Shown here piece after piece: positions 4,343 through 32,474 of a stretch of 64,000 nt of DNA. The DNA is taken from contig OY540816.1 of NCBI GenBank assembly GCA_961205875.1, positions 19,974,701 to 20,038,700 of the forward strand. The letters are read 5' to 3'. The stretch's first letter is position 1. Every line of letters begins with the position of its first letter. The DNA is from Sialis fuliginosa. Taxonomy: Eukaryota > Arthropoda > Insecta > Megaloptera > Sialidae. A program made the position numbers and the translations under genes. The notes below the pieces were generated by a model. The model saw only the letters and a list, made by a program, of their open reading frames with translations, was not told the origin of the DNA and searched no databases.

Positions 4343-4644
4343 TTTTATAAAGATTTTTGTTTTTGAATTAGAAACATAACCTATAATAACACACGTGACA
4401 GCTAACAGCAGCGTGTGATATGTGAAATGGAAATAGGCAACTTTAATTACATAACTTTTCCAACATTGCATAATCTACGAAATTTTATCAAAAATTATAT
4501 ATTTAGGTAATAAGAATTTCAGTTTTGGAATTGCTTTTAATATACAAGGTTTATCGACAATTTAACAATAAATCAAATTTTATTTTTAAAGTGAGTTTCC
4601 TTTTTTTTAAATAGTAGGTATTAGATAAATAAATTATTTTATAG
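4343..4644. promoter_or_regulatory. Bidirectional intergenic interval between TRMT6 and the coiled-coil gene
   Basis: Only 302 bp separate the two divergent start codons, so a shared promoter is likely. On the plus side a GTGAGT donor at 4591 and a TTTTATAG acceptor ending at 4644 frame a small intron. The first plus-strand exon is therefore probably non-coding, with the ATG directly after the acceptor. No TATA box was identified. Confidence 0.5.
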
Positions 4645-5315: not shown

Positions 5316-6301
5316 CTATCTAACATAATTTTGTAACAATACATTTCTACTTGGAACTATTTGGTCCCTGCAAAGTGGGCATTCAGTCTTAACTGTCGTC
5401 CAATCATAAATACAGTTCCAACAGAATATATGTCCGCATGTTGTTATTGTTGAGTTAGTTCGGTTTTCCATGCAAAGAGAACAATTAGATGAAGACAACG
5501 GTGGATATATAGATGAAACAGGGTTAGCTGCTTTACATTTTTGGTAGTTAGAATACGATGTATGTAATGTATTGAATAACGTTACAATACCTAATAAATT
5601 GAACAAGAAATTCGGCCTGTTTTCATTCATCCAGTATCTGACATGTAGCTAAAATATTTATTTATTATAAAAACACATGATCAATAAAAATAGAAAATTA
5701 GGAACATTTATTTGATAATAATTGTACTCACATAATTAATTCCTGTTAATCTTTCTGAAATGCCATAATACTGCCCATCAAAATAAAATAATACTTTATT
5801 TAGCTGTGTCAAAAATGGAGCGATAACTGTTTTAAAAACAGTTATAACGAAAATCAACTCATCTTTTGCTTCTGGTACTATTTCTTTGTTATTTATTACA
5901 GATGCATGAAATGATTTTAATATTTTTTGAAGAACGTTATCTCCACAGGAATGTAAAAGGAGCCACAATACATGTACCTAAAAAAAATAAGCTACAATAA
6001 ATATTTTTATAACAGCCAGAAGTTTGAAAAAACTTACAAAATCAGAAGGCAGTGATTTTTTAGTTTTGTTAACCCTTATAATACCCGTATGTTCTTCCCC
6101 TAATGTTTGTAGTTTTGATAAAGATGTTAGTCCATAATACAAGCTCTCTGAGACAGTATTGATGATATTTTTGTATTTGTACAAATATCTTCCTACTCCG
6201 AATTCTGTTAGGATAGAAAATATGTTTGTTGAAAGTTCAGTTATAATTTCGGTATCTTTTTGCGCAGTTCTCAAAATTTCCATATGGTATTTATGTAACA
6301 T
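5316..6301 (-). CDS. PEX10: Peroxisome biogenesis factor 10 (RING E3 ubiquitin ligase)
   Basis: Peroxisomal membrane RING protein that acts with PEX2 and PEX12 to ubiquitinate the import receptor PEX5 for recycling. Three exons on the minus strand, 6301-6038, 5977-5732 and 5648-5316, join in frame to 280 residues. The N-terminus has the family signature AQKD and then LQTLGEE, followed by hydrophobic segments and the LFYFDGQYY-RLTGI block. The C-terminal C3HC4 RING uses Cys226, Cys229, Cys241, His243, Cys246, Cys249, Cys260 and Cys263. The frame is open upstream to 6415 but only with a TTG, so 6301 is the first ATG and has an A at -3. Convergent with the coiled-coil gene; a minus-strand AATAAA lies at 5284-5289. 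Confidence 0.93.
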
Positions 6302-6779
6302 TTTGTAAACAAAATCTATGGTAAACAAACTTTCCAATTTACGCCACAATGCCAAACCATACGTCAAAAAAATAACACGTGTTTTGATTTCGAGACGTTT
6401 ACGGAAACTAAACAATTCAGCTCTACAATGACTTTTAAATCTTGAAATTTTTTAGTCGATTGTTGTCCATATGATTTTACATAAGTTCCTTTTACTGTTA
6501 TCTTAATCAACACATTTATTAAATCAGGCTATAAATTGGAGCTAAAAATAAATAATTTGTTTGTAATTGCATTCAAAACACATGTGACGGTTGTTGATTT
6601 ATTCTTTTTTGCATATTAAACGTTTAAAATAATTTACGTTTTAAATAAATTACATAACGCACCTCTTGACTAGCGTAGTGAAAACTTCTGTCATCTCTGT
6701 TGGCCATTGGCTACGTTCTCTTTGGCAGGTAGCAAGATTTGATATATTGTGTGTTCAGTCGTTCGTCGAAAAACACAAA
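6302..6779. promoter_or_regulatory. Bidirectional interval between PEX10 and NDUFA4
   Basis: A 478-bp interval between divergent start codons. A somewhat GC-richer patch at about 6660-6770, with a GGCCATTGGC sequence that fits a CCAAT-type box, lies just before NDUFA4. The remainder is AT-rich. Promoter use is inferred from layout only. Confidence 0.4.
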
Positions 6780-7257
6780 ATGATCAAAGGTTTAAGTATC
6801 GCGAGCTTAAAAAAGCACCCTGCGGTAAGTAGATAAATGAATTACTCATTGTTTAGAATATTAATTTCCTGGAATTTCCAAACAATTTCATAGAAACTGG
6901 ACTTTGGAATTTCATTGCATTTTTGTTCTATTTTACTTATTGCAAAACGTCAATACTTATGTCTGATATTTTTTTTTTTGTTTAGCTCATCCCACTTTAC
7001 GTCTGTGTGGGACTAGGAGGCATTGGTGCCGTATTTTACACATTGCGCCTTGCAACGCAGAGCCCTGATGTGGCATGGAATAAGAGTGGAAATCCAGAAC
7101 CGTGGGAAGAGTACCGTAATAAGCAATACAAAGTATGTTTGACTTTTGTTGTAAAATAAATTGCATAGATATTGATTAATAATGCTATTTTTTGTTCCAG
7201 TTTTATTCGCCAGTAAGAGATTACTCAAAGTCAGAAAGCCCTGCACCGAAATATTAA
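6780..7257 (+). CDS. NDUFA4: NDUFA4 / COXFA4 respiratory-chain subunit, copy 1 (conserved copy)
   Basis: Small inner-membrane subunit first assigned to complex I and now to cytochrome c oxidase. Exons 6780-6824, 6986-7132 and 7201-7257 encode 82 residues, the normal family length. The protein begins with a short KKHP-containing segment, then one membrane helix (about residues 16-38), then the family core SPDVAWNK-NPEPWEEYRNKQYK and a C-terminal FYSPVRDYS. Both introns are phase 0 and short (161 and 68 bp). AATAAA occurs at 7256-7261, overlapping the stop, and at 7269-7274. This copy is closest to the family consensus and is probably the housekeeping member of the cluster formed with the genes at 16591 and 23585. 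Confidence 0.93.
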
Positions 7258-7554
7258 TAAAATCACATAATAAAGCAATTTTAGATAGGGTAGAGTTATT
7301 ACATAATGTATGGTTTATTGAATGAAAAAAAAATTAAAATGTAAATAATATTGTTTTTCTGTGTGTGAATTCTCTAATTATAATAAATTATTATGTGGTA
7401 CATATGTTTTTGATTTATCCTTGAAAAATCCTTATGTTGTTATTTAGACAGTCTATTCTTATATCATGATGTATGTTGGCATTGAATTTTTTCTTAGAAG
7501 ACATAAAAAATCGTTATGAAACCATTATTTACTTATTGAATGACAGTGTCAAAA

Positions 7555-8873
7555 ATGGCAGATACAGACTGGGAAGAATTTTATGCTCATAACCTTCCAC
7601 CGACTGATTTTGAAGATAATAGAATGATATTGAAAGAATTTTGCGAAAGACATAAAACACAGAATAACAGAATTGTCCTAGTTACAGTCAGTAATAAACA
7701 TACATAAAAGTGAGGTTATGTTACGGTTGTTAATGATATTTATTGTGTTTATTTCAGTCCGGCGGTACCACAGTACCATTAGAACATAACACAGTACGTT
7801 TTGTTGATAACTTTAGTGCTGGAACAAGAGGTTCTGCATCTACTGAACATTTTTTAGAATACGATTATGCTGTCATATTTTTATATCGAATTAAAACTCT
7901 TGAACCGTTCACAAGACATTTCGGCGGACAGAAGTTCATGGATATGTTAGATCTACAAGAACAAAATGGACAACCAACAATCGTGGGTAAATATAAAACA
8001 TAATCAAAGTTTTGTTTAAAACTATCACATATTATGTATATTTGATTGTTTTATAGTTAAACCAGATAGCGTAGACGTACTTGCTCCAGTGCTAATGAAA
8101 TATAAAGCCGCTCAAGAAAGGGGTAGATTACTTTACGTTAATTTCACAACATTATCAGACTATTTATGGTTGTTAAGAGCTGCTTGCGAGTGTCTAGTGT
8201 CATTTGGCTCTAACGCTTTATTATATTTAGCTGCGGCTGTATCAGACTTTTATATTCCATCTCACCAAATGGTAAGTAACTTCCATAATCAATACAGTTA
8301 CAACCTTCTTTGATTTAATACTTCATTTTAATTATCAATAGCTTATCTATTTATAATAACAAACAACAATAATTATAATTGTTTTTATTTAAGGCTGTGC
8401 ATAAAATACAATCAAATGAAGGAGCACCTACGATTTCTTTGCAAATTGTTCCAAAACTTTTATCAGCTATAGTTAATATGTGGGTACCGCAAGCATTTGT
8501 CATTTCATTTAAATTGGAAACAGATGAAAATTTGCTCATTTCTAAAGCAAGGGAAGCTCTGAGAAAGTATCAACACAAAGTAAGTGAAAAAAATTATATA
8601 TAAAGTGAAACTCCAACCTAAAAATTACCAATCATACCTAACCTAACTATGATTATAAATGTAGGTTTGAACTTACTGAATATTTTATACTTTTAGCTGG
8701 TTATTGCTAATATATTACAAAGTCGTAAATATAGAGTGATTTTTGTAACACCTGAAAAACATTACGAAGTAACATTAACTCGTGAACAATTACATAATGG
8801 CATGGAAATAGAAGATCTTATTGTGGCCGATGTTGTAGCAAAACATACAGGATTTATCATGGAAGAAAAATAG
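7555..8873 (+). CDS. PPCS: Phosphopantothenate-cysteine ligase
   Basis: Second step of coenzyme A synthesis: joins 4'-phosphopantothenate to cysteine with nucleotide hydrolysis, in the cytosol. Five exons, 7555-7686, 7758-7986, 8057-8271, 8394-8579 and 8697-8873, give 312 residues, matching animal PPCS. The nucleotide-binding motif [10 protein letters not shown] spans the first junction (from residue 44), followed by [12 protein letters not shown], the central AAAVSDFY motif and a C-terminal Rossmann-like part ending in FIMEEK. The first donor is GTCAGT, acceptable but weaker than the GTAAGT of introns 3 and 4. PPCS sits between NDUFA4 copies 1 and 2 on the same strand, so it was included in or spared by the duplication that made them. 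Confidence 0.93.
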
Positions 8874-11800
8874 ATAACATGTTTTTCCAATATCATAAAT
8901 TCCATATGCATTTTGTAATGTTTTGTGCAACATTGATTTTTAATATTCTAGTTTGTTGGGTTAAAATTGTTTTTATTTCAATTAAGTTGCATTTTGAGGT
9001 TAGGGTTGTTTATTGTTACGTTCAAATTTTATATAACTTGTTAGTTGTCTTTTATTTAAGTAGTATAAACACAGTAGAAATATCACAACTGTTTTAAAAT
9101 TTAATCACTACATTGACAAAAGTATGTTTGTTTTTTATTTGCACATATAAAATGACCAAAGACTGATTTTTTACTGAAATATAATATTGCATACAGTTAT
9201 TTTTATCACAATAATACGTTATCTTAATTTCCTTGTACTTTTATTTATAAATGAGTGATTAAAACTGCACAAATTAAGATCTACTGTCAAAACTATGAAA
9301 TATTCAAATTAGCCGCGTAAAATTCTTGCGATGTGATTCTACGAATGGTAACCCTGTTTTTCAAATCGGCCAGTATTATCTTAGACCATTTATTAATAGA
9401 TAAATCAATAAAAAGTAGTTCAATAACAAGATAAAACTAAAATAGCCAAAACATAAATTAAAAGAACGAATTTAGTCAAATGTTTCTATGTATTTGAAAA
9501 TGATTTTTAGTGAAAAATGGAAATAACAGGGTTTATTTTAGAATAGACTCGTAGTTTTAGAAAGGGAGGCTGCTATTCTATTATTATTTTAAAGCAATGA
9601 CATATCATTGCTTTTGTTGTATCGTTGTTGATATAATATTTTGTCTAAATGTAAAAAAAGAACTGTTAAATGTTTTAAATGGATGCAGTGTAACTTATGC
9701 TTGCCAGAAGATGAAATGATTTTAAAAATCGTAACAATTACAACTGTCAGTTGTTTGTAAGCGGCCATATTTGATGACGTAAATAGTACCTCGGGTGTAA
9801 TTGGCTGGTATTTATATAATTGTTGGCTGATTTTAAAAATTAAATTCATTTTGTTGATGTTCTGATATATATATAATAATGAGAAAAACATCAAATACTG
9901 ATTTAAAAATCACGTTTCTTGACTCTGGTATAGATAGACTTTTTTAAACAAAGCTTTTCAAAGAAACATAGCCTTACTTAGAGTAAGTAATACATAAAGA
10001 AAACCAAATTTATGATTTGATATTTAGATAGACATTGTTGTTATTATTTGATACTTATTAAATATAAATCTATCGACTTTTGAAGTCATGAATGCTTATC
10101 AATCTATGACAAATAGAATAAAAGTGTTCCTATAAACTTTGACTATGCTTTGTTTAATATATTTAACTAATAGAATTTGTAAACTATATTTATATATTAT
10201 AAAGGTAAACTACAGATAAATATATATTAGAAGCCACTGCCTTAATGCATATCCTCTTAATCATATATGTATTAATATCTTTAGCATATAGCTATTTATT
10301 TTGTTCAACAAAAGATGGCAGCACCTATATAAAATTTTAATTTTTAAATAATTACTGCAACCATAGACTCGAAAACAGAGCCGCGTCAAAAGAAAGAGAT
10401 AGAAAATGTTTTGAGATATACTTGTCCTTATTTATACAAGAGCAACTATGTACTTCATTCTTGTTATAAAAGGAGATAGATATATCCCAATATTTTTAAC
10501 GTTAAATATTCTACCTCTCGCTATTTGTAAACTGTAATATTGACATATTTGGTTGTTATCCGTGATAAAATTTTATTTTTACGTAGGTGTTGACATCTGT
10601 TGTTTTACAAAGAAATTTCGCATGAGTTAATTATTATTTCGTTTTTTTTTTTTACATAAGACTTAAGGGTTAGATATATTTTATATTTTCATCCTTTTAT
10701 CATTTAGATACTTACTTTTAGTATACTTATAGTTTTTTTTTTTAATTTTCCATAAAAATTCTATATGGCCGCCATATTATTTTGCAGATTAAAATTTCCT
10801 TTTCACATCATTCATTTGAGTTTCAAATTCTGAAAAATATAATTTAAAACATTTTTCATACGTCTATATAATATAAGATAGAAAAAAAGTCGTTTTAATA
10901 GAACCAAAATGTTTTGAAACTATTTCTCAAGTTATTTAAATAACTTGTTGATAAACTCTGATTGACTAATAATAAATATTTATCATATGCATCATTAAAT
11001 TTTCAAAATATAAATTCGTTACACAAAACTACAAAAAAAAAGTGACGCATATGATAACCGAGAAACATTTTTTGCTCTTGTTATGGTAATTGGCCTAAAA
11101 TAATAATAATACATATTAAAATATAATCAACCATTGCCAGTTTATATGAATTTCATATAAAAATTATAAATTTAATAAAATGAATGTGTATAAAACTCGA
11201 TGTGACTCCTGCAAAAATGGGACCACTGGTTTAGCAGGAATATAAGCATGCTTTTGATGGATAAACATGTATCATCATATATTTTATTAATTAAACCGTT
11301 CATTTGTTACTACACCGCCTATTTAGAACTCTAGGGGCCTTTAAAAATAAATTCTGTATTAATTTTTTTCTCACCCAAAAATTCTTAAGGATTATCCAAA
11401 AATCTCACAAATTTCATGGTTTTAACCCCCTCTCCGACCTTGTCACAGGTTGTCGCATTCGTATAACCCCCCCCCCTCCCTATTGTGACATCTCACAAGT
11501 TTCGAAACAATACTTATAATAAATAATTATATAAATTTTTTTCGTTTATTAATAAAAATGATATGAAATTTTACCAAAAACATTTGAAAATTTCACAATA
11601 ACTCTTTCATTCTTTGATTTTTAGATGTGACTCCTACCCCCCCCCCCCCCCCTGAACACCATGTTTTGTGATAGCAGTTTTGATTTAAAGTTTAAAATGA
11701 AAATCCCCTTCCAATCAAATCAGATAATTGTCTTTATAATAAACCGTGTTTTTTTTTTCAAAAATAATGCCTACTATGTAGTAAAAAATGAACAGTTTGA

Positions 11801-13089
11801 ATAATAAAAAATTAATTTTAAAAAATATTTAATATTTGTAATTAAAATTAGGTTCAAAAAATTGGATTATTATAAGTGTTTACATTTTTATAAAAATGAA
11901 TATAAAATTTATGGTAAAGTATTAGTTATTAGTGACGGAAAAAAACATATCTATTAATTGATACAAATACGAAGAGAGGGATTCTTAACAATGTAAATTA
12001 AAATAGTGTCCATTAGAGTCACTATATACGCGCTCATTGGGTTATAAAAATATAAGTGAATGTTAAGAATCAGTCTCTCGAACAGGGCCGGGCTGTTTTT
12101 ATTGACTTCAAAAAATTTTTTTTGCAATTTATTGTTTTTATTTATTTTTTTCACTTAGTCCGACCCTGTTATAAATGTAATTTATGTGATATAATCTTTG
12201 CCAAATTTAAATATTTTTGTTAACAAATTAAATTCAAAAACAATAGGGTTATTTAATTAATTATTATAAAAAAAAATCAATTGGTATTGAAAATGACAAA
12301 AATTTTGAAAGGTACACGGAGAAAAATGGAAGTAAAATTTTAGGATAAATTAAATTTTAAAAATTTATAAATTATTGCAAAATTTTAGTTCCATTTTTCT
12401 CAAAGATAATAAATGGCAAATTAAAAAAAATACGTTCTTTTAAATATCAAAAATAATATTTAAACAAAAATTATTAATTTTGCTCATATCCTCTGATATA
12501 TAGTACAACTTCTATATATCGAAGGAAACCAAAAAATATTCGAATTCTAGGAAACTCATGTTATATAAGTTCGACTGTATACACACACAGACTATATACA
12601 GTCATTCATATAAACAAGAATAATTCAAGTTAAAAATAAAAACTGTTATTACATAATCTAAATTATTGATATCCAGCTGTATGTCAAATTAAAATATATT
12701 TTGAGATACATTATTGCATCAAATATTATTTTAGCATATTTTTATCCATATTTTATTATATATACCTACCATATTAAAGTTCGGGCGCTTTTTATTTGAA
12801 GCCAGGGCCGGCTGAAGGTAAATGCTTTAACAACAAAAATAATAACTAACGTCAAACATTTTCTAGCAAGGGTACAGATATGTTTTATATCTTAACCCCA
12901 TTTTAGGGGGCCAGACTTCCTTTCTTCACCTCCACTGGTTACGCCACTGGCTTTACACGAGAGACTGATAAATAAATAATAAATACCGGACGGGAGAAAA
13001 AAATCATGTAAAGCCCTTTACCAAACCTGAAAAAAATAATTTATTATTATTTTTTTTAAATAAAGAACTCCAAACTGAAATTGACCAAG

Positions 13090-13200
13090 GGAACGTCCAT
13101 AAACTACGAAACTTTTATAAGGAGGGGGGGGGGGGGTACAGCAATATTGTCGACATTTTTGATGAAGGGGTGGGGGGGTCATATACGTAACATTCTTTCA
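13090..13200. repeat. Dispersed repeat with poly-G runs
   Basis: Begins GGGAACGTCCATAAACTACG and holds two G-runs at about 13118-13136 and 13152-13158, then a CATATACGTAAC motif. The opening motif recalls short TIR elements frequent in arthropods; I could not pair both termini here. Confidence 0.4.
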
Positions 13201-13245
13201 TATAAATAAGAACAAAAAAATATCCGACGATTGAACAATATTTAA

Positions 13246-13430
13246 AGCAATATTGTAACTGTGGAGATCTGCAAATATCTACAATGATCTACAAAAATCT
13301 ACATCGATCTACAAAGATCTATGTAGATCGTGATAGAGATTCAAATGTTGAAAATTCATTAATTTTCAACGTTACAACGATCTTCTGAGATCTTTGTAGA
13401 TCGTTATAGATCTTTACAGATTTTGTCTCA
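13246..13430. repeat. Imperfect palindrome built from GATCTACAA units
   Basis: The left part repeats GATCTACAA-type words and the right part holds their reverse complements (TTGTAGATC). They are centred on GAAAATTCATTAATTTTC near 13355. The strand could fold into a long hairpin. No flanking target duplication was found. Confidence 0.6.
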
Positions 13431-15245
13431 AAAGATTAAAAATTTTTTTCAAGATATTATTCTACTTTATTATACGGTACTACGTTACATAACATTATGG
13501 GATCAAAGGCTTACACCCAGAAGCCAAGATCCATATCAAGAACACCGCGGAAGCCTCAAGACTTATCTACATAACGTTACGTGGAAAAGGGGGATCCAAA
13601 AATTCTTGAAAAAGCTTTATATGGTTTATATGGATGTTCCCTAACTCCTAAAAAAATTTTATCAGTAAAAAAGTTAGCTTTGATTCTCTTAAGTTCTTAT
13701 ACCCTCTTTCGGCCCTGATATTGCTTTTAAATTCAAATGATTGTATGTCTATAATAATATTGTCTGTTATTATAAAATTTTTTTTGTATGATTTTTTTAC
13801 TTCTTGTGTTGTTATTTTGTCCTTTTTATAATAAATAAATAAGTTATAGATGCTATATATATCATTAGTTATAAATATAAAAGTAATCTATATATAGCGA
13901 TATAAACGCTAATAAAAAAATTTATATGTTTTATATACCTATTATATACATGTATACATGGTGAAATAAATTGTGATAAACAAAATATTATTTTTTATTT
14001 TTTTGCAGAAAAATTTGTTTGCCAGAATTCACGAAATATTGTGAAATTTTTATCTTCAATATTATATAAAAATATTAATTGAAAAAAATATTTTGGGAAT
14101 TGATATTGATATGACGCATAACGTTCGCGTACTTGGCCTTTTTAAAAGCCAAAAATACTCTAACTTTTACTTTAATTACCCAGTTATGAAAGTATAGACC
14201 AAGTGATAGGTTTTTTTTAATCAAATAATTTTAAGTCAAATTTGAAGCTATTTACTAAACAAATAAATTTTTTAAACAAATACTAACAATAAATAATAAA
14301 ATTTTTTATCCAAATTCGTATCCGAAACTATATCCAAAATAATTTTATATCCGAAGCCGAAGAAACCAATGAAAAAAACATCCCTAAATAAAATATTTAT
14401 TACAATTGTGAAATTAAAATTTTAAAAAAATTATTGACATCTCTGGAGAAATATATAAACTATTATTCAATTGAGATTTAAAAACATATAAACATCTGAC
14501 TTACCGACTTACTTTTGACAACAATTGAAATTATATTTATTTTTCTTCGACGTTATGAATCGATTCCAAATTCAAACATATGTATATAAAAAATATTTTA
14601 AAATATATATGTATGCCTAAAATAATTTACGTCGTTCAAAATAAAGAATTTATGTATATTTAATTAAATTCGACTCCATTTTTAATCTTATCTAGAATGC
14701 ACTTTAAGATAAAACAACATTTAAAACGCATTATTAAAAACACTTTAAATAAATGTTATAATTTTAATTAGCATTTTAAACCAATTAGATAATAAATTTT
14801 AACATAATTTAAAGTATATTTATTATGATTAATTGTTGACATTTTGAACATCAAATTCAATATGGCGCCACGAGTGGTGTAAATATGAACTAACACAACC
14901 ATCTGATTGTTGTTTTCAAATAATGTATTTAAAATTAATATAATTTTTATTGACTCATAATAATGTTTATATTATGATAAACAGAAACCGACACGTTTAT
15001 GGTGTTTCTAGATAAGGAAATATCAGGGATTTCCATGAATTTATTGATAATACTTAATAATAATGGTAAAAGAATTTTCCAACCTCAAAAAATGAGATCA
15101 TATCTACTTTATACTTTGTAAATTGATAACAAATATATTGTTAGTGTTTATCAGTAACGGATTTTCATTAGGCTTAAAAGGCATTTTGGAGCCCCAACCC
15201 AAAAAAAATTATTTAAAAAAATCAACTATGTAATTTATTTTTCAC

Positions 15246-15335
15246 GTGTTATCGGCCAACGTTTCGTCACACGTTGCAGTGGACATCTTCAGGGCACTTC
15301 TAAATGTGCACACTACACCCAGAAGCCAAGATTCA
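15246..15335 (-). repeat. Rearranged copy of the CTGAAGATG/CGAAACG repeat
   Basis: On the minus strand this reads CCCTGAAGATGTCCACTGC and then GACGAAACGTTGG, as at 44290-44350. The adjoining ACACCCAGAAGCCAAGATT is in plus orientation, so the copy is rearranged relative to 44 kb. A CTGAAGATG-CGAAACG pairing is known from Penelope-like retroelements; assignment here is inference. Confidence 0.5.
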
Positions 15336-16590
15336 TTCTGTATATGTATAAATTATCTAAAGTTTTTCTTAACTTTGTGCTTCTCAAGTTTTTTTTAGAT
15401 TTTAACTGAAATTTTTACCTAAATCCGACCCTGATGTTAATACATATATTATTATAGTAAATTAAATTAGTCATACAACTAACTGTTAATAATGTTATTA
15501 TCAAATTATGTAAAACTATTCTAAATATAACAATATACTAAAGTTAGGGAAATAATTTATGAATGAAACTTTAAAAATAGATTATTATATTATAAACTTA
15601 GAATACTGTCCAAGAATTTTACAACTTAGGATAATATATTATTTATACATGAACTAAATAATCTGTTCCGCATTTTTATTATTAAGTTTTATTTATTTTT
15701 TGTCTTTTTAATAGGTCTCGTAAACTGCAGTGGTTTAACCAAAAATTTTTTAAACTGCATTTTTTCACAAATATCTAGGATAACAATTTCAAAATTTTTG
15801 ATCGCAAAAATTTTTTTAATGTAAAAAAATACGTTAAAATTTCAAACAAAAGTTATTTCTATTTTTCTGCAAAAAAATAAACAGGTTTCTATTTGAAAAA
15901 ATTTAGCTGACCCCAAAATAACCTCCAGTCAAGGTCAAAATTGTTACTTCATTGATTTTTCCCCTCTAAATCCTAAAACTTTTCTAGCAAATATTTTCCC
16001 TAAAAATCCTTAGTTTTCCAAATACTAAGCAGTATCAAACTCAACCTCTATAAATACCAAAAATATCAAATACTATGTACATTATTCTATCTATAAAAGA
16101 AAAACATGTAGGTACTTACGCAAAAAAAAATTTAAATATTTATCTAGTAATTAAAATTGGTAAAAAAAATAACATAAAATATCACACATTTAATCTTATT
16201 TGTTCAAAAATACCAGCATTCTAAGTAAGCTATGAAACTTATCTGAATCATATACCAGCTATTTTCCACCACTCGCGGCAAATTCAAACGCTCGACCAAT
16301 CACGATCGAGTATTTCAACTGTTTTTTCTACCACATTGATGTACGACCATAAAACTCCTATTTATATATTTTTTCCCTGCACCTGTACCCATTTATATAA
16401 CGTATTTTTGTTTAAAACAATCAGTTTGAAAAGTTTCGCTCTCTGACGTCTTTGTTGGCTTATACGTCACAGTATTTTAGGGGTCGATCAATACGCCGGC
16501 TTTTCGAGGCATTGGAACGAATATAGTGTCCGTGAACACAAGTGTTTACCAATTTATCCTGAATAGAAGTTGTACCAAGTTCAAGTGAAA

Positions 16591-19500
16591 ATGAAAGGAC
16601 TCAATATTGCAAGTATTAAGAAACATCCCGCCGTAAGTATTTAATTTTTTTTTAAATTGTTATTTGTTTTAGTTTTGGAATTGGTATTTGAATTTTAATA
16701 AAATTTGGAAAATTTAATTATTATTTTTTTTGGGGGGGGGGGGGGTTATTTTTCTGATAAATTACTTATTAATTTTATTGTAATTTGTATCTAAAGGAGG
16801 AGGGGTATTTTCAATTTTATTATATTAAATTATAATAAAAAAATTATTTGTTGTGTGTTATAAAAATATAGAAAATAAAAAAATCTATTTTAATTGATAA
16901 TTTTTTGAAATTCAACAATGAAAATAAAATAAAATAAATAAATAATAAAGTTTTAGTAAGTGCCTATTGATTTTTCAAAATATTGCGTAATATGAAAATA
17001 CATATATCTACATACTTACTATATAAATTAATATAGATATACATATATATATATATGTATATAAAGTAGGTACACATATGCTATCCGTATAGGCACTAGC
17101 TTTATAAATTATTATCTATATATATAAAATAATACCTAGCTTGTGATAAATATAATTCTACATAGGTAATCAATTTATAACAATGAAATATGTTATTAAA
17201 ATTTATCTAAAATCTAAACAAACAAACAAATTTATAAAAATATTATTATATTTATACTACGCAACAATACCTTATCAATACCTTCATTGTCAATCATATT
17301 GATTAATAAAAGATACCAACTTTCGTTTTTATTCCTTCATATTATTGCCAACAATATAGATTAATCACAAAGTTTATTTTTAGCCCAATAATATTTGCGC
17401 ATGCGTAAATTTTTATAATCAAAATTCAATAATGAAACTCGAAACTTAATTTGAAACAATCAATTTTTATTTGTCATTGTTGAATTGACGTCATGCTACC
17501 AACTTTAAAAAAATAAGTACCATAATGAAATAAATTAAAATATATTTCAATTGTTGTAATATTGATGTTTAACTGCCAAATTTTAAAATTTTGAAAATAG
17601 TTTTGATATTGTTATTTGTCATTGTTGTATTTATTTTTGATGCCAACTTTGAAAATGTTCAAAACAGCTACGTAAATCATATAAATTAAAAACAATATAG
17701 GTAATTATATACCTAATTATATTAAGCACATGATATTTAAAAATAGATGTTATTTAAAATTGAGTACAAACAATCAAAGTACGTAAATAATTTGAAAATA
17801 ATTCGGGAGCATGTGATTTTTGTACGTGCACAAACCTGAAAAATAAAACTATTTTTAAAAATGTGCACTCACATCCTTGAGAGTATTTTCCAAATGCCAA
17901 TAAAAAATACATTACATATCCTAAGAATAGTCCAGTGAGTAAATATTTTTTTATTTTCATTTCCTGATTTTTTTCATAAATATTATAACAAAAAAAAAAC
18001 CTGGGGTGTGTCTCAAGGAATAGTATTGAATAGGTTTTAAATAGTCTCTGCGGTATACCTATATTATTTAAATTACATTGTTTGGGATCAACTAAGTAAA
18101 TTATTAAGGCCTTTTTATAAATGTACTTATACAAAAATATGCTGGGAAAATATTAAATTATAATAATTGATCCTTCTGATTAATAAATAAGGCCTATTTT
18201 GTGCCTGAGAGTTAAGTCTATAAATATTTTAAGAATTTATAATATACTTTTAACCAAAAAAGGCCCTATTTATTTTTATATATTTTTAAAATATTTATCT
18301 GGAAAGTAATATTAGACTTCTAATGATATTGATGACTTACCAACGAATTATAGGTTTTAATTTATTTAAAAAAGCCTACAAAAGTTGAATACAAATAATA
18401 TCAGTTTTTTTCCATGATAATGTAACAATGATGGAAGAACATTCGTTATAAGTTTTCATCCATTATTAATATAGGCCTTTGTTGTTTACAGTAAATTATA
18501 ATACAATTATTATAAAATATTTCCTAAAAAGACAAAAATCAAGGAAATACAAAATTTGGTAGTAAAAAAAAATCTCAAAATTCGTAATAATTTTTTTTTT
18601 GTTTAGAATACAATTAAATGAAAATATTTCGTAATAATACAAAATCACAAAATTCGTAATAATTTTTTTCAGTTCTTAAAAAAGGCCTTTTTTGTTTAGA
18701 ATACAATTAAATCAAAATATTTCCTAAAAATACAAAATTCGTAATAATTTTTTTCAGTTCTTAAAATAGGCCTTTTTTGTTTAGAATACAATTAAATCAA
18801 AATATTTCCTAAAAATACAAAATTCGTTATTATAATTGTTTCCAATTAATAAAATGGGCCTTTTTCTGTTTCCAGTTAATCCCCTTGTATGTGTGCATAT
18901 CTGTCGGCGCCAGTCTAGGCGTTTTTGGCGTGGCTCACGCGGTGAAGAGTCCTGATGTCATTTTCAACAAGACCGGTAACCCGGAGCCGTGGGAAGCGTA
19001 CCGGAATAAACAGTTCAAGGTAAGTAGGTCAAATGTGCGTAATCGATAGATGTATTCAAGTTCACTGAACATATGTTTCATCTCACTGAATATAAAAATA
19101 ATGTATGCATAGATAGACTAATGTCTGGTATTATAAAGGAGCTAGCAAATTTACTAGCTGGCAAGCACTTTTAAATGAGATATCAAACTTATATGACAGT
19201 TCTTTTGGAGTTTGTTGAAGACTTTGACAAGTTTCGCGCACGTGTTGTAGGTAAATACCAAAGGTATTAAAACAGTGGTGATATTATGAAAATTCTTTTG
19301 TACAGTGAAAGATGCCAACTGTGTTACAATTAGTTGAAGTGTCACTGCTCTAAATTTCATAACTAATCCATAGATACTAGTACAGAATTAATACCCCATT
19401 TGAAAGTAATTGCTAGCTAGCAAATTTTGCTAGCTCCTTTATAATACCGGACATAAAAATGTTATTTCCAAATCAAAATATTTCTGTTTGGCAACATAGT

Positions 19501-21724
19501 ACTCTGGAACTATAAACCACCCAAATTTCTGAAAATATTCAGTAGGGTCGAGTGGGGTAAATATGAAACACCAAAAAAATGGGGTAAAAGTGAAACTAAC
19601 TTGCAACTAAAAAACTAATTTATTTATAGGAGAATTATAAAAACTGACATCATCATTAAAGGTTTGTTAAAGCGACCTGAAAATATGAATCGCCTAATAA
19701 GTGATGTGTCACCCCTACAGATTTGTATTTTGTTTCACTTTTACCCCAGTTGACCCTATACAAATTTCAACTCGAAAATGACAAAACTTTGCTTACACCC
19801 AGAAGCAAATAAATTCGTGTTTAGACCAAAAAGATAAAACAGCAATAGGGTTTGTTGCTATTTTGTCAAAAAAAACATCATGTTGCTGTTTTGTCTCCTT
19901 GGTCTAAACACGACATAAGAACGACCTCGAAAGCTTCAAAAGCTACGTGATTTTTGAAGCATCTGCTTGTCGAAAAAAAACAACTAAAAGTAAGAAAACA
20001 AAAGCAACATTTGTACACAAAACTTATAAATAAATCTGACGGTAAATGAAATAAAAAACAAACTTTTACTGCTTCTCCCAGGAAACTTATAAGAAATAGT
20101 TGAATGCAATTAAAAATATATTGTTTTGTTTTGAAGGACAAATCCTGGCGTATTTACGTTAAACTTGACACTTGAGAAAAAAGATGATACAATATTATGT
20201 GTATATTGTATATCTTTACTCTTTGAACAAATGCCAGAAGAACAAAAAAAGCACGTGTTTAAATATTATATTGTTTATTTTTTTTCACACATAAATACAT
20301 ATATTATTACATCACTGTAGCAGTGGCGTAGGAACGGGGGGGGGGGTTTTGGGGTCGAAACCCCCACCGAAATATTCAATGCTCTTAAAATATATGAAAT
20401 TATTATTACAATTTTGAATTGATTGACCTATTTTATGATTATAACCCCCCCCAAAATATTCAATGTTAAACTTATCCCCCCCCTCGAAAATTTTTCTTAC
20501 TACGCCACTGCTGTTTAGAATGCGTTTATGCTAATATTTCCTTAAACTTTTTGCATAATATATTTTTTTTAATTTCTTTTGCAATGAGATGTTATGACTT
20601 GCATACAGTTTTTTTTAAATTATCAACAGGTGTAAGTAAAATTTGTCATTTATCTTGATCTTTGTTTTTTTTTATCAAAAATCTATAAATAAAATTTATA
20701 CAAATAAACTACTGTGGCCTCCACAATACTTTTTTATACAAAAACTTAAATAATACCATTCTCTTTACAACATTTTTTCTTTTACAAAAGAGAAACTAGG
20801 AGCACAATAAAAACTTAGCGGAAGTAATACCTACTATGTTGTCACTATTCTATTGTCCCTTTTTCTCTATTTATTCATTATACAAAATCGTGAATATCTC
20901 GACTCCTATGTAAAGGGGGTAAATTTCTTTCTCTAAAATCCCTACACCCCGTTGGATTGAATGAGACCAATTAAAACTATTTATCTGTGACAGGGGGGGA
21001 AATATTAAAGATTGATCATTTGTATAAAATCTTATGAAAATTAGCTTATTTTTTTATTTTTGAGGGATGGAGGGTTAAGACTAATTTTGTAATTGAAACA
21101 ATATATAAGCTATCTATTGGCATTTTATTTATTGCTCTATGATTATTAGTACCGGAGATATAAGCTTATAAATAGATTATTCAAAAATAAAGACGATAAT
21201 AATTAAGAAACATTTTTAAAATACTATAAAAAAATTAATTGTAGATATTTTCAAATAAACAATTGAAAAACGTTTCGGTACATGTTACAGTGGATATCTT
21301 CAAGGTTAATAATAATAAAAATAAGTTTTTTGTGTCTTATAGAATATGTACAAATTACTTTTGAAGGCTTGCCTACAACTTTCATATTTTTGTATGTATT
21401 TAAAAAAACTTAACAAATTTTTAGGTCGTTATACATTTCTGAGAATATTTTTTAGCAATTTTTGGCGAATTTCTTGTCATAGATTTCAATAGGTTTCTTT
21501 AGAAAAGTGACGTCAAAAACTAATAGGATCATACTTCTAATTGCCCCCATGTAAATTACCTATGTCTTAATCAACTTGGAATACACTGTATATATATTTT
21601 TTTATAAATATTAAGTAACTTATTTTTTTATGAAGAAAATTTCTAATTATATTTATTTTTGTTTCAGCATTTCTCACCAATCCGTGACTACTCCCAGTCT
21701 GCAAGCCAAGCACCTAAATATTAA
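16591..21724 (+). CDS. NDUFA4 paralogue, copy 2
   Basis: NDUFA4/COXFA4-family protein of 80 residues from exons 16591-16632, 18876-19019 and 21668-21724. It keeps the KKHP start, one membrane helix, the core KSPDVIFNK-NPEPWEAYRNKQFK and a C-terminus HFSPIRDYS ending APKY. Its intron positions and phases equal those of copy 1, so it arose by DNA duplication, not retroposition. The introns are far longer (2243 and 2648 bp) and contain tandem repeats and TIR elements. The Trp of the PDVxW core is Phe here. About 140 bp upstream are a CRE-like TGACGTC (16444) and TACGTCA (16462). AATAAA is at 21882-21887. The frame is intact and all splice sites are canonical, so it is probably functional. Confidence 0.9.
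18474..18870. repeat. Tandem repeat of about 86 bp before a splice acceptor
   Basis: The motif GGCCTTTTTTGTTTAGAA recurs at 18683, 18769 and, degenerate, at 18857, with older copies from 18474. Units contain AAATATTTCCTAAAAATAC and a TTTTTTTCAG that mimics a splice acceptor. The last partial unit runs into the true TTTCCAG acceptor of NDUFA4 copy 2 exon 2. Confidence 0.75.
19121..19454. mobile_element. Non-autonomous TIR element (MITE), ATGTCYGGTATTATAAAG family
   Basis: The ends are ATGTCTGGTATTATAAAGGA and the complement of TCCTTTATAATACCGGACAT, with inner GCTAGC motifs continuing the inverted repeat. It is 334 bp, inside intron 2 of NDUFA4 copy 2. A near-identical copy lies at 41787-42107 and degenerate relatives at 47353 and 58008. 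There is no transposase. Confidence 0.85.
19545..19756. mobile_element. Short TIR element with TA target site
   Basis: Left end GGGTCGAGTGGGGTAAATAT, right end complementary to it (ACTTTTACCCCAGTTGACCC), flanked by TA on both sides as in Tc1/mariner-type insertions. 212 bp, non-coding. Confidence 0.75.
20321..20510. mobile_element. hAT-like MITE with CAGTGGCGTA ends
   Basis: The terminal inverted repeats are CAGTGGCGTA and TACGCCACTG, a common arthropod hAT-type terminus. The interior is G- and C-run rich (GGGGGGGG, CCCCCC). The 8-bp flanks (CACTGTAG and CTGTTTAG) are only partly alike, so the target duplication is eroded or absent. Confidence 0.65.
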
Positions 21725-23584
21725 TCTACATAATAACAAATATGATTAGACAAAACTAACATTGACTATTTTATTAGCTACGACGTACCTAACCTAAAGG
21801 GTTTCTAGGATGTGATTTAAAAGTAAGATATATAAGTAACGTAGGTATTGTATTTTAAGAGAAAGGAAATATTTTTAACAAAATAAAACTATTATACCTA
21901 CTTTTTGTCGCATTTTATTTTACTTTACAGCTTAAAACTAAGTATCTATAACTCAAGGAATTTATTTAGGTATTACTCCTGTACAGGATCGTAAGAAGGG
22001 GGAATTAAAGGCAAATCAATACACGTGTCCGGGCTTTCGAGGCCCTATTTGATGATAAACAAAATCAGGCATAATCTAGCCACTGTGACACTACATTAAA
22101 AAAACAGACCTCCCCCCTCAAACCGTTTTCGAGATACAGCTTCTCAAATTTTTATTTTATTTTTTCAAAATTCTTGAAAAAAATGGCTATAACTTTTGAT
22201 TCAGAGTAGTTGAATCAATTTTTCACCTATAATTAACATACTTTTAATGAAATTGGAAACCCCAAAAAATTTTATGATTCAAATTTCAACTTTTTAAAGA
22301 AATATCAACTTAAAAATTAAAAAAATAGAAAGAACATCATAACTTATAGTATATATGAACAATAATATTAACTATTTTTCATATAATTTATAGGTAATTT
22401 ACTGCGAAACTGCCCATAAAAAATTAATCAAATATATTCTTAGTAAACATTAGAATGTTAGATTATTATCATGATTCACTGTTAGCGAGGATCGATTCCG
22501 AGAAAAACCGTCATGCGTTTATTTGCCAATTATTATTTACATAATTCGTATTAACTCTTGTGTAAGTAATTTAATTAATACGGTTATATTACCGCTTTAG
22601 AAAATATTGTTAATTTTTATATCAAAATTGATATTATGATAAAAAATACAAGCTTGGAGTTAATTTATTATAATCAAATTCAAATTTGATATTTCCAGTT
22701 TTAATCATTGGAATTTTTATTATGATATGTATTTTATTTGTATCATATTTTATTATTAATTTATAAAAAAATTATCTTTTCTTGATAGAAAATCAATTAT
22801 CTTTATTAATTGTTTTATATGGATTTAATCGTTTAATTAGGCTGTTATTTAATTCACTGGCGGGGGAATAATTTTTTTACAGGGGAGAAAAAATGATGAC
22901 TTCAAATTTTAAATATAAGTTTATGTCGTAATTTGTAAAATTTGAATTTTCTCAGCTTATGGAGGGGGTAGATACTGTATTCTGCCCCCCTCCCCCTTCT
23001 GTTCTAGCTATTTCTTGTGTATAGTGAAATTTTGTGTTTTTTTTTCATTAACCTATTTAATTTGGTTTATTTAAAAAAATATTAATGTCGTAATTTGTAA
23101 AATTAGATTTTTCTCAGTTTACGGAGGAGGTAGGTACTGTATTCTGTGCCCCCCCCCCCCTTCTGTTCTTACTATTTTTTGTATAGGGTGAATTTTTTCG
23201 TTGTTTTTTGTTTTCATTAACCAATTTAAAATATCAATTAATATATTATTTTTAGTTTATTTTAAAAAAATGTTATTGGTTAGAGAAAATAAATTTAAAT
23301 TTGTATAAAAATTATTTATGTGCCGTTTTGAAACTGTTATTTAAATAAAATAATAAATAATATGTTCAATCTTTACCCTTTCATTTGAACAAAAGTCTGT
23401 ACGCGCCCCTGGTTATATGTATATTCAACATTTCTATGGAAACCACTACAGTTTTGTATTTATTTATTAACAATCACAAAGTCTTTGTAAAATAATAAAT
23501 AATTAAACGTCAGATTTATCACTTCACCTTTTGGAAAAATATTCTTAAAATTTACAGTGGCTTTTTTACACAAGCAAATACAGA
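21725..23584. other. Intergenic interval between NDUFA4 copies 2 and 3
   Basis: No gene seen. It contains 3' UTR sequence of copy 2 and a segment at 22115-22260 resembling the arms of the large foldback at 51794-52527 (TCAAACCG-TTCGAGATA, ATGGCTATAACTTTTGA). There is also a two-copy duplication of about 160 bp (from about 22925 and 23086) carrying GTCGTAATTTGTAAAAT, TACTGTATTCTG and C-runs. Confidence 0.6.
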
Positions 23585-24437
23585 ATGGAGTTTTGGAAGA
23601 AAACCCTAAGTCCTGCAGGACTTATGAAACATCCTTGTGTAAGTACAAAGGAAAAAATTGACAAAAAATATTATTTTTAATATTCGATTTTAATTATTGC
23701 ATTGTATTTTTGGTTTCGTCATTAATTATTATTGCATAATATTAAATATTTGTCAATTTTTATCAAAGAGGGATATTAGTATTTAGTTTCCTTTGATATT
23801 ACGTCAGTTTCAACAATGAATGAATATGAATTTAATTCATTACAACCAGGGGCGGACTAAGTAGAAAATTTGTCCGGGCATTTTTGTAATTATTACAAAT
23901 ATACGTAAGAAAGTTTTTATTATACGAGAGGGGCAAGTAAATTTCATTTCAGTGGGATGGGGACGGGGGGGGGGAGACTTAATAATTAAAATATTAATTA
24001 TTTAGTATTTTTATGCATTTTACGATGTGATAGTCTATTAGAAAGTGGAAAGGGGTACAGCTTGTACGCCCACACATTCTTTTACAATAAAAACATAATT
24101 TTCTTTATTAAATAACAAATTATATTTTTCAGAATATTCCTATTATACTGACCGTTGTAGTACAATATTCTATGGGACTTTTATCTATAATACATGCAGT
24201 AAACAATCCTGATACTAGCTGGAACAAAAAGGGAGACCAAGAACCATGGGAAGCCTACAGGGACAGACGTTACAAAGTAATATAAATTTTATCCAAGATA
24301 TAAACCATATTAGTACAATTTATTTACAACAGATGTCACTTGACTTACAAAAATTATTTGCGTTAATTTAATTCCAGTTAATGGATACTAGAGATAATTA
24401 TGACTGCTTGGCTCCAAAATACAACGAAGAAGAATAA
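23585..24437 (+). CDS. Divergent NDUFA4 paralogue, copy 3
   Basis: Exons 23585-23638, 24133-24276 and 24378-24437 give 85 residues. It retains the KHP motif before the membrane helix, and the core NNPDTSWNK-DQEPWEAYRDRRYK identifies the family. The N-terminal segment is longer and basic. The helix differs (IPIILTVVVQYSMG). The C-terminal FYSPVRDYS of copy 1 is replaced by LMDTRDNYD and an acidic tail NEEE. Intron positions and phase match copies 1 and 2. The frame is open and splice sites are usable (second donor GTAATA is weak), so it looks like an expressed, fast-evolving duplicate. A specialised (for example germline) role is possible but not shown. A candidate AATAAA lies at 24708-24713. 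Confidence 0.82.
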
Positions 24438-24455: not shown

Positions 24456-24674
24456 ATGGGCAACTTTCAAAAGTTTTTAACAATCGCCTCCCTTACTATT
24501 GCTGAAATTTTACTGGAATTCAATGGACACATGACAAAGAAAATGAAGAAAGCTTATAAATCGACGAAAAGCGGTTTGAAAAATCTTCCTGATAAATTAG
24601 TTTTTTGCAGACATTTTGAAAGTAGAAAATTATATACCAGAAGAAAAATAAAAAGAAAACTATATCACATATAA
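24456..24674 (+). CDS. Possible small open reading frame or 3' UTR of NDUFA4 copy 3
   Basis: A 72-codon frame starts 18 bp after the NDUFA4 copy 3 stop with a good context (AAAATGG). The predicted product is very basic in its second half (KRK-rich) and I do not recognise it. It may simply be 3' UTR, since the next AATAAA is at 24708. It could also belong to the 5' region of the TOG-domain gene, but no phase-0 donor of quality was found in it. Confidence 0.2.
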   Translation: MGNFQKFLTIASLTIAEILLEFNGHMTKKMKKAYKSTKSGLKNLPDKLVFCRHFESRKLYTRRKIKRKLYHI

Positions 24675-24935: not shown

Positions 24936-27900
24936 GATCATCAAAATGGTGATGTTGCAGAAATTAATAAACCACGAAGCCCATTTTATATATCAAAATG
25001 GAATACGGTCAAAAATGTAAGCTACTTTAGCCATTTGGGGCCAGAAAGAGCCCGAGCCCCCCTAAATCTTGAAGCAACGAAAAATAAGTCACTTCATACA
25101 TACAAAAGCATTTTTTACCAACAAAACGATAATCTATGTTCGTCAAATATATGTTTCAACGAAATTAGGTAATTTTAAAATATTTTTTGACATTACATTC
25201 CCAAATTAATATTTAATCTTCATTATTATGGTTTGTATCTTGGATGTATGAGTTATTCATGTATCCGGTAGATGTCACTTTTTATTGTTGCGTAAATTCA
25301 AATTTTTAAATGAAATTCATTGTTGAAATTTGGTAATTTTTAATATTTTTTGACATTACATTCCCAAATTAATATTTAATCTTGATTATTGTCGTTTGTA
25401 TCTTGGGTGTATGAGTTATTCATGTATCCGATAGATGTCACTTTTTATTGTTGCGTAAATTCAAATTTTTAAATGAAATTCATTGTTGAATTTTTCAGGA
25501 AAGATGTAAAACACTATCAACAAAAAGATTATGAATGTTATACGATTGTAGATAATGTCAACAATGTAAGTTATAAGGATGAATCGAACAAGACAGTAAG
25601 TAAAGATAAAAAGAAGGAAATGCCTATTATCTATGAAAATAAACAGAATCCCCAAAATCCTTACAATAACCATTTATCTTTAAGAGAGCAGTTTCTTGCA
25701 AAACGCAAAAATCAACCGAAAAAACTAACTTTACTTGAGTTACTCACAAATGAGGTAAGTTCTTTTTCATTTGCATTTTATTGTACTGTTATAAATAAAT
25801 AACAATAATTACAATAAAATAACCTTCAATTTTTTTCTGATTGCAATCAAATCTTCCCAAAATATGTCAATACAAAAAAGAAATGATGATGGTTTTAAAA
25901 ATAGTAAACAAGTTTTTTTCTGTATCACAAATGTGATATATGACTAAGAGCACATTTTTTTGGGTAATTTGCAGGCCGTGCTTTATTATTGTTAATTATA
26001 GTGGTTTAATTGAATTGAAAAATATCCGTGAAGGTCAATAAGACACTATTTACAACTAGAAGCTCAATTATATTTTTAATATATATAAAGCTCAACGTCT
26101 CTCTGTCTGTCTGTCTGTCCGTTAGTGCGCTTATCACTCGAGAACTACTTATACGATTTACCTGTGTTTTTTATGTATATTTTGTTTCGTTACGTAACAT
26201 TAGGAATAAGCAGTGGCGATAATAGTAAATCAAGTCGGAAAAAAGTTTGCCGCCGCGGTCTTGTCTAATTTTAAATAAATTCTGCCAAATATTTATAAAT
26301 CAAATTTCAGAACTGCGCGACAAAAACCACCCTTCTCCGTGAAAAGTATCTGACGAAGAGCCACAACAAATTGATACAGGCAATGCCTACCAAACAGAAA
26401 TTCATCCATAAAAACGTAGCGAGTGATAAGAACAAGAAAGTGTTCCGTTCTAAGTCGTTCGCGGTGCTGAAGAGGAAAAAGATAAAACACAAGAGCATGA
26501 GGTCGTACACTTTACCGTGTATCAAGATCAAGAGCCCCAGGTTTAAGAACAGCAGACAGAATGATGCTGCGAGAAATTCTGTCAATAATGATTCTTCTTC
26601 GGGATTGGGTAATTTAAACAAAAAAATATTTTTTATGGGGTGGAGGGGGTTAAATGTAAATATTTATGCACGTCAAAATATAATCAAACTAATTATTTTA
26701 AAATGTATTTATCCACACTCTACATACGTCAAATGTTGTGCGAATCCATTGTTAATTTTTCAAAATTTCTATATTTAAAAAAATATCAACCCATCTTACA
26801 CACGTGCCTTATGTTGCGTAAAAACACTATCGTGCAATTCTAAAATGCAAATATTAAAAATCTAACCATTAAAAAATGTATTTGTCCACATTCCACACGT
26901 GTCAAATGTTGCGTGAACCTATTGTCGTGCAATTTAAAAACAGCCTACTTTTCAATACTTAAAAATTATTTTTCCACCTTCCACACGTTCCTTATAATGT
27001 CTGTGGACACAAAATGCAAATATTAAAAATCTGAATATTTAAAAATATATCTGTCCACATTCCACACACGTCAAATGTTGCGTGAACCTATTGTCGTGTA
27101 ATTTAAAAACAGCCTACTTTTCAATACTTAAAAATTATTTTTCCACCTTCCACACGTGCCTTATAATGTCTGAACACAAAATGGAAATATTAAAAATCTG
27201 AATATTTAAAAATAGATCTGTCCACATTCCACACGCGTCAAATGTTGCGTGAAACTATTGTCGTGCAATTTAAAAACAGCCTACAAATTTTAGTACATAC
27301 TTAAAATTATCTGCCCACCTTCCACACGTGCCTTATAATGTATGTGAACACAAAATGCAAATATTAAAAATCTGAATATTTAAAAATATATATGTCCATA
27401 TTCCACATGCGTCAAATGTTGCGTAAACTTATTTGCCCCCAGAAATTTGAATATTTAAAAAAAATGTGTATTCACGTTTGTTGCGGTCTTAAATTTGATT
27501 TTCTAATATAGAAGATTACTACATCTCTGATCTGCGGCCAACTTCGTTCGTGTCTTTGAAAAAAGTAAACGAATCCCTGAACAGGTCGAAAAAGTCGCGC
27601 AACTCGTACCTGTCGCCGACAATAGCCAGCACGAAGAAGAGCATATCGTCGCAGATCGAGCGGATCGAGCAGATGATGTCGCCGACGCGGAAGCGCATCC
27701 AGCAGCAGTTCCTCGTGCCGCAGGCGGTCAAGTACTGCAAGAGCCAGATCGTGCCGTTCAAGGAGATACTCAAGGACGAGTTCCAGTACTCGCGCGTCAC
27801 GTACAGGGAGAGGCAGGGCTCGTTCGTCAAGGGCGTCACGACGTCCACGGTGAAGAGGACGCCGCCCAAGATGCACCAGGTCGAGTACACCAAGCAGGAC

Positions 27901-32341: not shown

Positions 32342-32474
32342 ATGATGAATTCGATTGATCTGACCGGCGGTTTTTCTGTGAAAATATTTATTATTTGTGG
32401 ATAAGTGAATATTCAAAAAGTGCCATTGTTGTTTATTTATTTTATATTGTTGCAAAAATGCGTGAATGATATAA
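32342..32474 (+). promoter_or_regulatory. Cluster of short upstream ORFs before the FER start
   Basis: Three short reading frames precede the main ATG at 32476: a 20-codon frame (32342-32404), a 3-codon frame MRE (32458-32469) and a 2-codon frame MI (32466-32474). The last ends 1 base before the main ATG. If this stretch is in the mature 5' UTR, initiation at the main start would need leaky scanning or reinitiation. Confidence 0.4.

Follow-up and report, generated by a model that had tools for sequence, protein, structure and literature searches.

Three intact NDUFA4-family genes within 18 kb of the Sialis fuliginosa genome, one of them strongly diverged

Three B12D genes in one orientation

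In the genome of Sialis fuliginosa (392 Mb, 20 contigs), we analysed a stretch of 64,000 nucleotides (hereinafter the window; C8:19974701-20038700) that carries three intact genes of the NDUFA4/COXFA4 (B12D) family, each with three exons, in the same orientation and within 18 kb (6780-7257, 16591-21724, and 23585-24437; hereinafter copies 1, 2, and 3, encoding proteins of 82, 80, and 85 amino acids, respectively). An initial annotation of this DNA had proposed three such genes, and their places and strand were confirmed, with all three recovered by the B12D profile. Their exons are as follows:

6780..6824, plus strand: copy 1 exon 1, MIKGLSIASLKKHPA (open frame, ATG, and GT donor)
6986..7132, plus strand: copy 1 exon 2, hydrophobic segment followed by PDVAWNK and NPEPWE (B12D match, E = 3.8e-20)
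7201..7257, plus strand: copy 1 exon 3, FYSPVRDYSKSESPAPKY then stop (exon-join reading)
16591..16632, plus strand: copy 2 exon 1, MKGLNIASIKKHPA (exon-join reading)
18876..19019, plus strand: copy 2 exon 2, with Phe at the human Trp45 position and, in the alignment used, His at the Arg35 position (B12D match, E = 8.1e-13)
21668..21724, plus strand: copy 2 exon 3, HFSPIRDYSQSASQAPKY then stop (exon-join reading)
23585..23638, plus strand: copy 3 exon 1, MEFWKKTLSPAGLMKHPC (exon-join reading)
24133..24276, plus strand: copy 3 exon 2, hydrophobic segment followed by PDTSWNK and QEPWE (B12D match, E = 2.5e-6)
24378..24437, plus strand: copy 3 exon 3, LMDTRDNYDCLAPKYNEEE then stop, with Asp at the positions of human S66 and S72

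The joined products match Pfam B12D (PF06522) with E-values of 1.1e-25, 4.4e-18, and 5.8e-10 for copies 1, 2, and 3, and all three score above the curated cut-off of 21.5 bits (89.2, 64.8, and 38.8 bits). Searches of the PDB with copies 1 and 3 as queries retrieved the same four distinct sequences, all labelled 'Cytochrome c oxidase subunit NDUFA4' (E-values 5.7e-22 to 1.4e-20 for copy 1 and 9.8e-5 to 0.0094 for copy 3); copy 2, compared by alignment only, is 38-42% identical to the mammalian NDUFA4 chain fragments. A hydropathy scan, used without a dedicated membrane predictor, found one hydrophobic segment per copy (best 19-residue mean hydropathy 1.90, 2.03, and 2.07 at residues 15, 15, and 20; 1.65 for the human fragment). 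Pfam and the fly gene names retain the older designation of this family as the complex I subunit MLRQ, under which the three copies would serve complex I. We hold this to be most improbable, as the matched PDB chains are labelled as subunits of cytochrome c oxidase, and structural and knockout data place human NDUFA4 in complex IV (PMC12894743).

All six introns are GT-AG; as annotated earlier, they are of phase 0, and in each gene the first follows KHP-A/A/C and the second follows the (Y/F)K codon. Their sizes are 161 and 68 bases in copy 1, 2243 and 2648 in copy 2, and 494 and 101 in copy 3. The retention of introns rules out retrocopies. In Drosophilidae, by comparison, 26 of the 34 inferred duplication events of such genes are attributed to retroposition (PMC2241641), whereas the Sialis cluster is of the intron-keeping, segmental kind. 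Intron 1 of human NDUFA4 lies at c.42 in phase 0, after codon 14 (PMC13392013), and intron 1 of all three copies occupies the same place, after the residue aligned to A/A/C; we accordingly take intron 1 to be ancestral. The position of human intron 2 (c.131) is not common to the Sialis copies. The shared intron pattern is thus real but at least partly inherited from before the duplications. For MLRQ in Drosophila melanogaster, Drosophila pseudoobscura, and Anopheles, a published table gives the number 3, which we read as coding exons (PMC551531).

A genome-wide B12D profile search yielded three matches among six scored candidates, all in this cluster; as the search scores the best candidates only, very decayed B12D copies could be missed. 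With copy 2 as query, six of the seven rows fall in the cluster and the remaining one, on contig C1 (E = 0.86), is read as chance; with copy 3, all five rows fall in the cluster. Among IMG/VR contigs, 106 pattern matches were retrieved, of which none was confirmed as a relative. The concentration of all the genome's B12D matches at one locus exceeds chance and supports the description as a gene cluster; however, since a gene resembling PPCS, a neighbour outside the family, sits between copies 1 and 2, they do not form an uninterrupted array:

7555..8873, plus strand: PPCS-like gene with a DFP domain (Pfam PF04127, E = 3.4e-16; exon joins)

The accompanying premise, that NDUFA4 is normally single copy, is unsupported as given, since vertebrates have three paralogues of this complex IV subunit (NDUFA4, NDUFA4L2, and C15orf48; PMC7793259, PMC12894743, PMC13392013). 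Protostomes are also reported to have homologues of two of the vertebrate types (PMC7793259), which makes it unsurprising to meet more than one B12D gene in such an animal. The premise may hold for three dipterans: MLRQ is a single gene in each of D. melanogaster, D. pseudoobscura, and Anopheles, and is not among the duplicates in the available part of that study (PMC551531). A search of the literature on insect NDUFA4 and its duplication, covering titles and abstract openings and leaving subscription journals largely outside its scope, found no such cluster.

Age, branching order, and regulation of the copies

The proteins share 53/80 (copies 1 and 2), 32/78 (copies 1 and 3), and 32/77 (copies 2 and 3) identical residues. 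Synonymous sites are saturated, with the Nei-Gojobori method (NG86) yielding no synonymous divergence (dS) and maximum likelihood returning dS of 6.3, 20.7, and 17.8 for the three pairs; for this reason we claim no ratio of nonsynonymous to synonymous divergence (dN/dS). Codon position 3 is more divergent than positions 1 and 2 in every pair (Fisher p = 7e-9, 0.0013, and 0.0013), and in a neutral simulation matched to the third-position divergence mean amino-acid identity was 0.09-0.11 with 5.6-6.5 stop codons, as against 0.41-0.66 and no stops observed. As frames and codon structure were kept despite the saturation of synonymous sites, we take the copies to be old, selected duplicates. Repeats of at least 40 bases in window positions 5500-26000 comprise five direct families and three inverted pairs, none of which touches an exon of the three genes or links two of the NDUFA4 genes to each other; in one of the inverted pairs (44 nt, 70%), one arm lies in the space before copy 2 and the other in intron 2 of copy 2. 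The saturated synonymous sites, together with the absence of repeats linking the genes, rule out a recent duplication or an assembly artefact.

In a tree rooted on three mammalian chain fragments, copies 2 and 3 group together (bootstrap support of 98 from 200 replicates); the outgroup uses three of the four PDB sequences, the fourth (9i7u) having the same aligned letters as 5z62. Copies 2 and 3 both lack one residue that is present in copy 1 and the mammalian chains; in the alignment used they also carry His where those sequences have Arg35, and they read WEAY where copy 1 has WEEY. In the approximately unbiased (AU) test, the two alternative branching orders were rejected only marginally, with p-values of 0.050 and 0.049 under LG, 0.058 and 0.058 under JTT, and 0.068 and 0.083 under mtInv. 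Borderline sequence support thus suggests that copies 2 and 3 are sisters and that there were two duplications, which would have separated copy 1 from the ancestor of copies 2 and 3 and then copy 2 from copy 3. The branch lengths are 0.06, 0.16, and 1.11 substitutions per site for copies 1, 2, and 3. The graded divergence noted in the initial annotation is therefore real in being unequal, and is better described as the outcome of two duplications.

In a survey of insect oxidative phosphorylation (OXPHOS) genes, the nuclear respiratory gene (NRG) element, of motif RTTAYRTAAY, was confined to one paralogue in 214 of 215 duplication cases (PMC2241641). A full match lies before copy 1, as a weak candidate:

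6649..6658, no strand assigned: ATTACATAAC, full NRG match, 131 bases before the copy 1 ATG, between copy 1 and the opposite-strand Pex2_Pex12/RING gene

Copy 1 has a second full element at +518, past its stop, and there is none within 1 kb of the ATG of copy 2 or 3. This would be compatible with the parent-only pattern of duplicated insect genes, though the contrast is weak. The element occurs at one of the two COX5A loci (on C14; by eye, just past the first-intron donor) and not at the other, at none of three COX4 loci in a range of 1.5 kb around the matched exon, and at COX6B not upstream but 734 bases downstream of the match start. A position picked at random in the window has such an element within 1 kb with a probability of 0.32 (0.10 for -200 to +300). 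With this background, and with elements lacking at COX4 and upstream of COX6B, the element neither supports nor refutes much. The strings of the miR-210 seed-match type that were searched for are absent from the plus strand behind the three genes. The missing NRG elements, together with a GC content at third codon positions (GC3) of 0.31 in copy 3, close to the overall GC content of its surroundings, would fit copies 2 and 3 being pseudogenes or unexpressed relics. Yet their frames and splice sites are intact despite the saturation, where neutral evolution would predict the simulated load of stops and an identity of about 10%, and we consider such decay very improbable.

The NDUFA4 cluster is not special in this genome as a duplicated OXPHOS family. 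Eight other families were searched, and three of the seven with matches are present at two or more loci; the additional COX and UQCRB loci are known from their matched exons. COX4 has three loci, with a pair 7.5 kb apart on C14 (9582393-9591391) and one on C7 (6311287-6311697) where the matched sequence forms one open frame (pairwise identities 73%, 53%, and 48%); COX5A has two (C14:12977655-12977933 and C1:23922079-23922372; 57% identical over 105 residues); and UQCRB (UCR_14kD) likewise has two (C14:12295719-12295949 and C2:28765396-28765632). COX5B and NDUFB7 gave a single match each. COX6B and NDUFA12 gave one strong match each and one weaker match read as a related assembly factor, which we take to be COA6 and NDUFAF2, respectively. 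COX6A matched neither this genome nor any of 14 controls, and is hence uninformative.

Residue changes and predicted roles in complex IV

Human residue numbers were transferred through alignment to the PDB chains and an alignment of exon 3, with the start of exon 3 fixing the register. The structure of human NDUFA4 names Phe19, Tyr32, and Trp45 as visible bulky side chains, and places the N-terminus on the matrix side and the C-terminus near or in contact with COX6B1 in the intermembrane space (PMC12894743). In copy 1, position 19 is Tyr, and Tyr32 and Trp45 are retained. Copy 2 likewise carries Tyr at 19, with Phe at 45, so that the core Trp-to-Phe change described earlier is correct and falls on human Trp45; it has lost Tyr32 and Arg35. 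Copy 3 retains Trp45 and has lost the residues at 19, 32, and 35. The positions of human S66 and S72 are Ser in copies 1 and 2 and Asp in copy 3; past the hydrophobic segment, copies 1, 2, and 3 carry net charges of +2, +3, and -3. Exon 3 of copy 3 carries LMDTRDNYD, which agrees letter by letter with the replacement earlier reported for its C-terminus; it also keeps the Tyr before S72 and APKY, followed by an added NEEE. The retention of APKY before NEEE argues for a diverged homologue and not a foreign exon.

We consider that copy 1 is probably the housekeeping subunit of an old, maintained tandem family and that copies 2 and 3 are probably alternative complex IV subunits, exchangeable by expression. 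Several precedents bear on this. Human NDUFA4 is added in the last assembly steps of complex IV (PMC12894743); C15ORF48 replaces it in macrophages (PMC8654286); the OXPHOS duplicates of D. melanogaster are testis-biased (PMC551531); and COX4L is required for male fertility, with no rescue by COX4 (PMC8950493). By analogy with C15ORF48, the testis-biased duplicates, and COX4L, we infer for copies 2 and 3 complex IV membership specific to certain cells or conditions, with restricted expression (testis or stress) and subunit exchange. A phosphomimic effect is proposed for copy 3. A first duplication would have produced the ancestor of copies 2 and 3 and a second would have split them, with both then retained by selection for protein function. 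Each copy is predicted to be a single-pass protein of the inner membrane that would join complex IV late and at the same peripheral site, and since the site would be shared, expressing copy 2 or 3 would displace copy 1. Made in particular cells or conditions, either could thus replace copy 1 and tune the activity or supercomplex state of complex IV. An old, selected tandem family with strongly unequal divergence fits the respiratory-subunit specialisation put forward in the initial annotation, if not the single-copy premise from which that proposal was drawn.

The closest parallel is the vertebrate set NDUFA4, NDUFA4L2, and C15orf48 (COXFA4, COXFA4L2, and COXFA4L3; 'MISTR'), which likewise consists of three unequally diverged B12D paralogues of about 80-85 amino acids with one membrane segment. 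The vertebrate genes are linked through miR-147b and miR-210 (PMC7793259), whereas those of Sialis lie together within 18 kb. OXPHOS duplicates in Drosophila and further insects (COX4L and others; the MitoComp2 set) also combine intact frames with one conserved parent and diverged duplicates. If the Sialis copies are exchanged in complex IV, the species would have, within a single small locus, an invertebrate equivalent of the vertebrate NDUFA4/NDUFA4L2/C15orf48 switch.

Plain dosage or redundancy, in which the extra copies do the same work and are kept by chance or for amount, would account for a copy 2 that is 66% identical to copy 1 and retains both serines and APKY, and the duplication of other OXPHOS families in this genome is in keeping with it; but the divergence is strong and one-sided, the human Trp45, Arg35, and Tyr32 positions have changed, and the copies are old, which makes this account quite unlikely. 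Less unlikely, though still not what we expect, is that copy 3, possibly together with copy 2, no longer belongs to complex IV and serves some other purpose in the inner membrane, with only the B12D fold retained. The long branch of copy 3 against that of copy 1, its rewritten tail, and the loss of the Phe19, Tyr32, and Arg35 equivalents point in this direction. Nonetheless, copy 3 retains KHP, PD, the Trp45 equivalent, EPWE, the Tyr before S72, and APKY, and has a single hydrophobic segment at the corresponding place; moreover, human C15ORF48, despite an identity to NDUFA4 of only 26%, replaces it in complex IV (PMC8654286).

S66 is a phosphosite in fly and human; knocking down LRPPRC1 in flies doubles its occupancy, and the human S66A variant associates more weakly with complex IV, the role of pS66 being left as speculation about dimers and supercomplexes (PMC8050774). 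In copy 3, where the part after the membrane segment would have gone from net positive to net negative, the Asp residues at both serine positions and the acidic end resemble a phosphomimic and suggest that the protein may act as a permanently 'phosphorylated' form, a likeness noticed after the fact in one sequence. Such a copy would be a natural experiment on the effect of NDUFA4 phosphorylation. The fuller version, in which copy 3 would be a gene-encoded, permanently 'phosphorylated' complex IV subunit and the choice among tandem genes would replace a kinase step in setting the state of complex IV or the supercomplex, is a long shot.

Several observations weigh against copies 2 and 3 being exchangeable complex IV subunits. 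Copy 3 is only 26-27% identical to the mammalian NDUFA4 chain fragments and its structure model is poor (mean predicted local distance difference test score, pLDDT, 63.3; predicted template modelling score, pTM, 0.28); its tail is much changed at the very part whose human counterpart touches COX6B1; and the two S-to-D changes were spotted post hoc in one protein of one genome. The Kishino-Hasegawa (KH) and Shimodaira-Hasegawa (SH) tests (p 0.08-0.09) reject neither alternative branching order, and the NRG contrast between copy 1 and copies 2 and 3 is weak. The cluster is a real observation of a known sort with one specific oddity in copy 3: most likely, the copies are unremarkable spare parts for particular tissues or stresses, and the serine-to-Asp changes of copy 3 are the oddity.

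Neighbouring genes, repeats, and other contigs

The other genes and domain-bearing frames recognised in the window are as follows:

2966-4474, minus strand: Gcd10p gene
5319-5648, strand opposite to copy 1 and upstream of it: RING frame
5981-6451, strand opposite to copy 1 and upstream of it: Pex2_Pex12-domain frame
at 32470: FCH (F-BAR) frame

The Pex2_Pex12 and RING frames are taken as a single gene facing copy 1, presumably PEX10. Downstream of copy 3, an open reading frame (ORF) of 72 codons (24456-24674) begins 18 bases past the copy 3 stop in the same frame. It matches no Pfam family and its GC content is flat across codon positions, for which reasons it is probably non-coding on its own; among the 4401 stop-to-stop segments on the plus strand of the window, 34 reach this length. 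Further on, 24936-27990 contains lysine-rich open frames with plausible splice signals, of which the three pieces submitted had no Pfam match. Large tandem arrays occupy 39734-41350 (115-bp unit, 14 copies) and 47764-51360 (184-bp unit, 19.5 copies, 97% matches).

Elsewhere in the assembly, five chromosome ends were read (both ends of C1, the start of C2, and both ends of C8); TTAGG/CCTAA arrays stand at four of them, and the start of C1 reads as N. Contig C19 (25,566 bases) begins with sequence that by eye resembles a bacterial sensor histidine kinase, and is perhaps a contaminant or symbiont contig, and C20 is a contig of 15,590 bases with mitochondrial genes.

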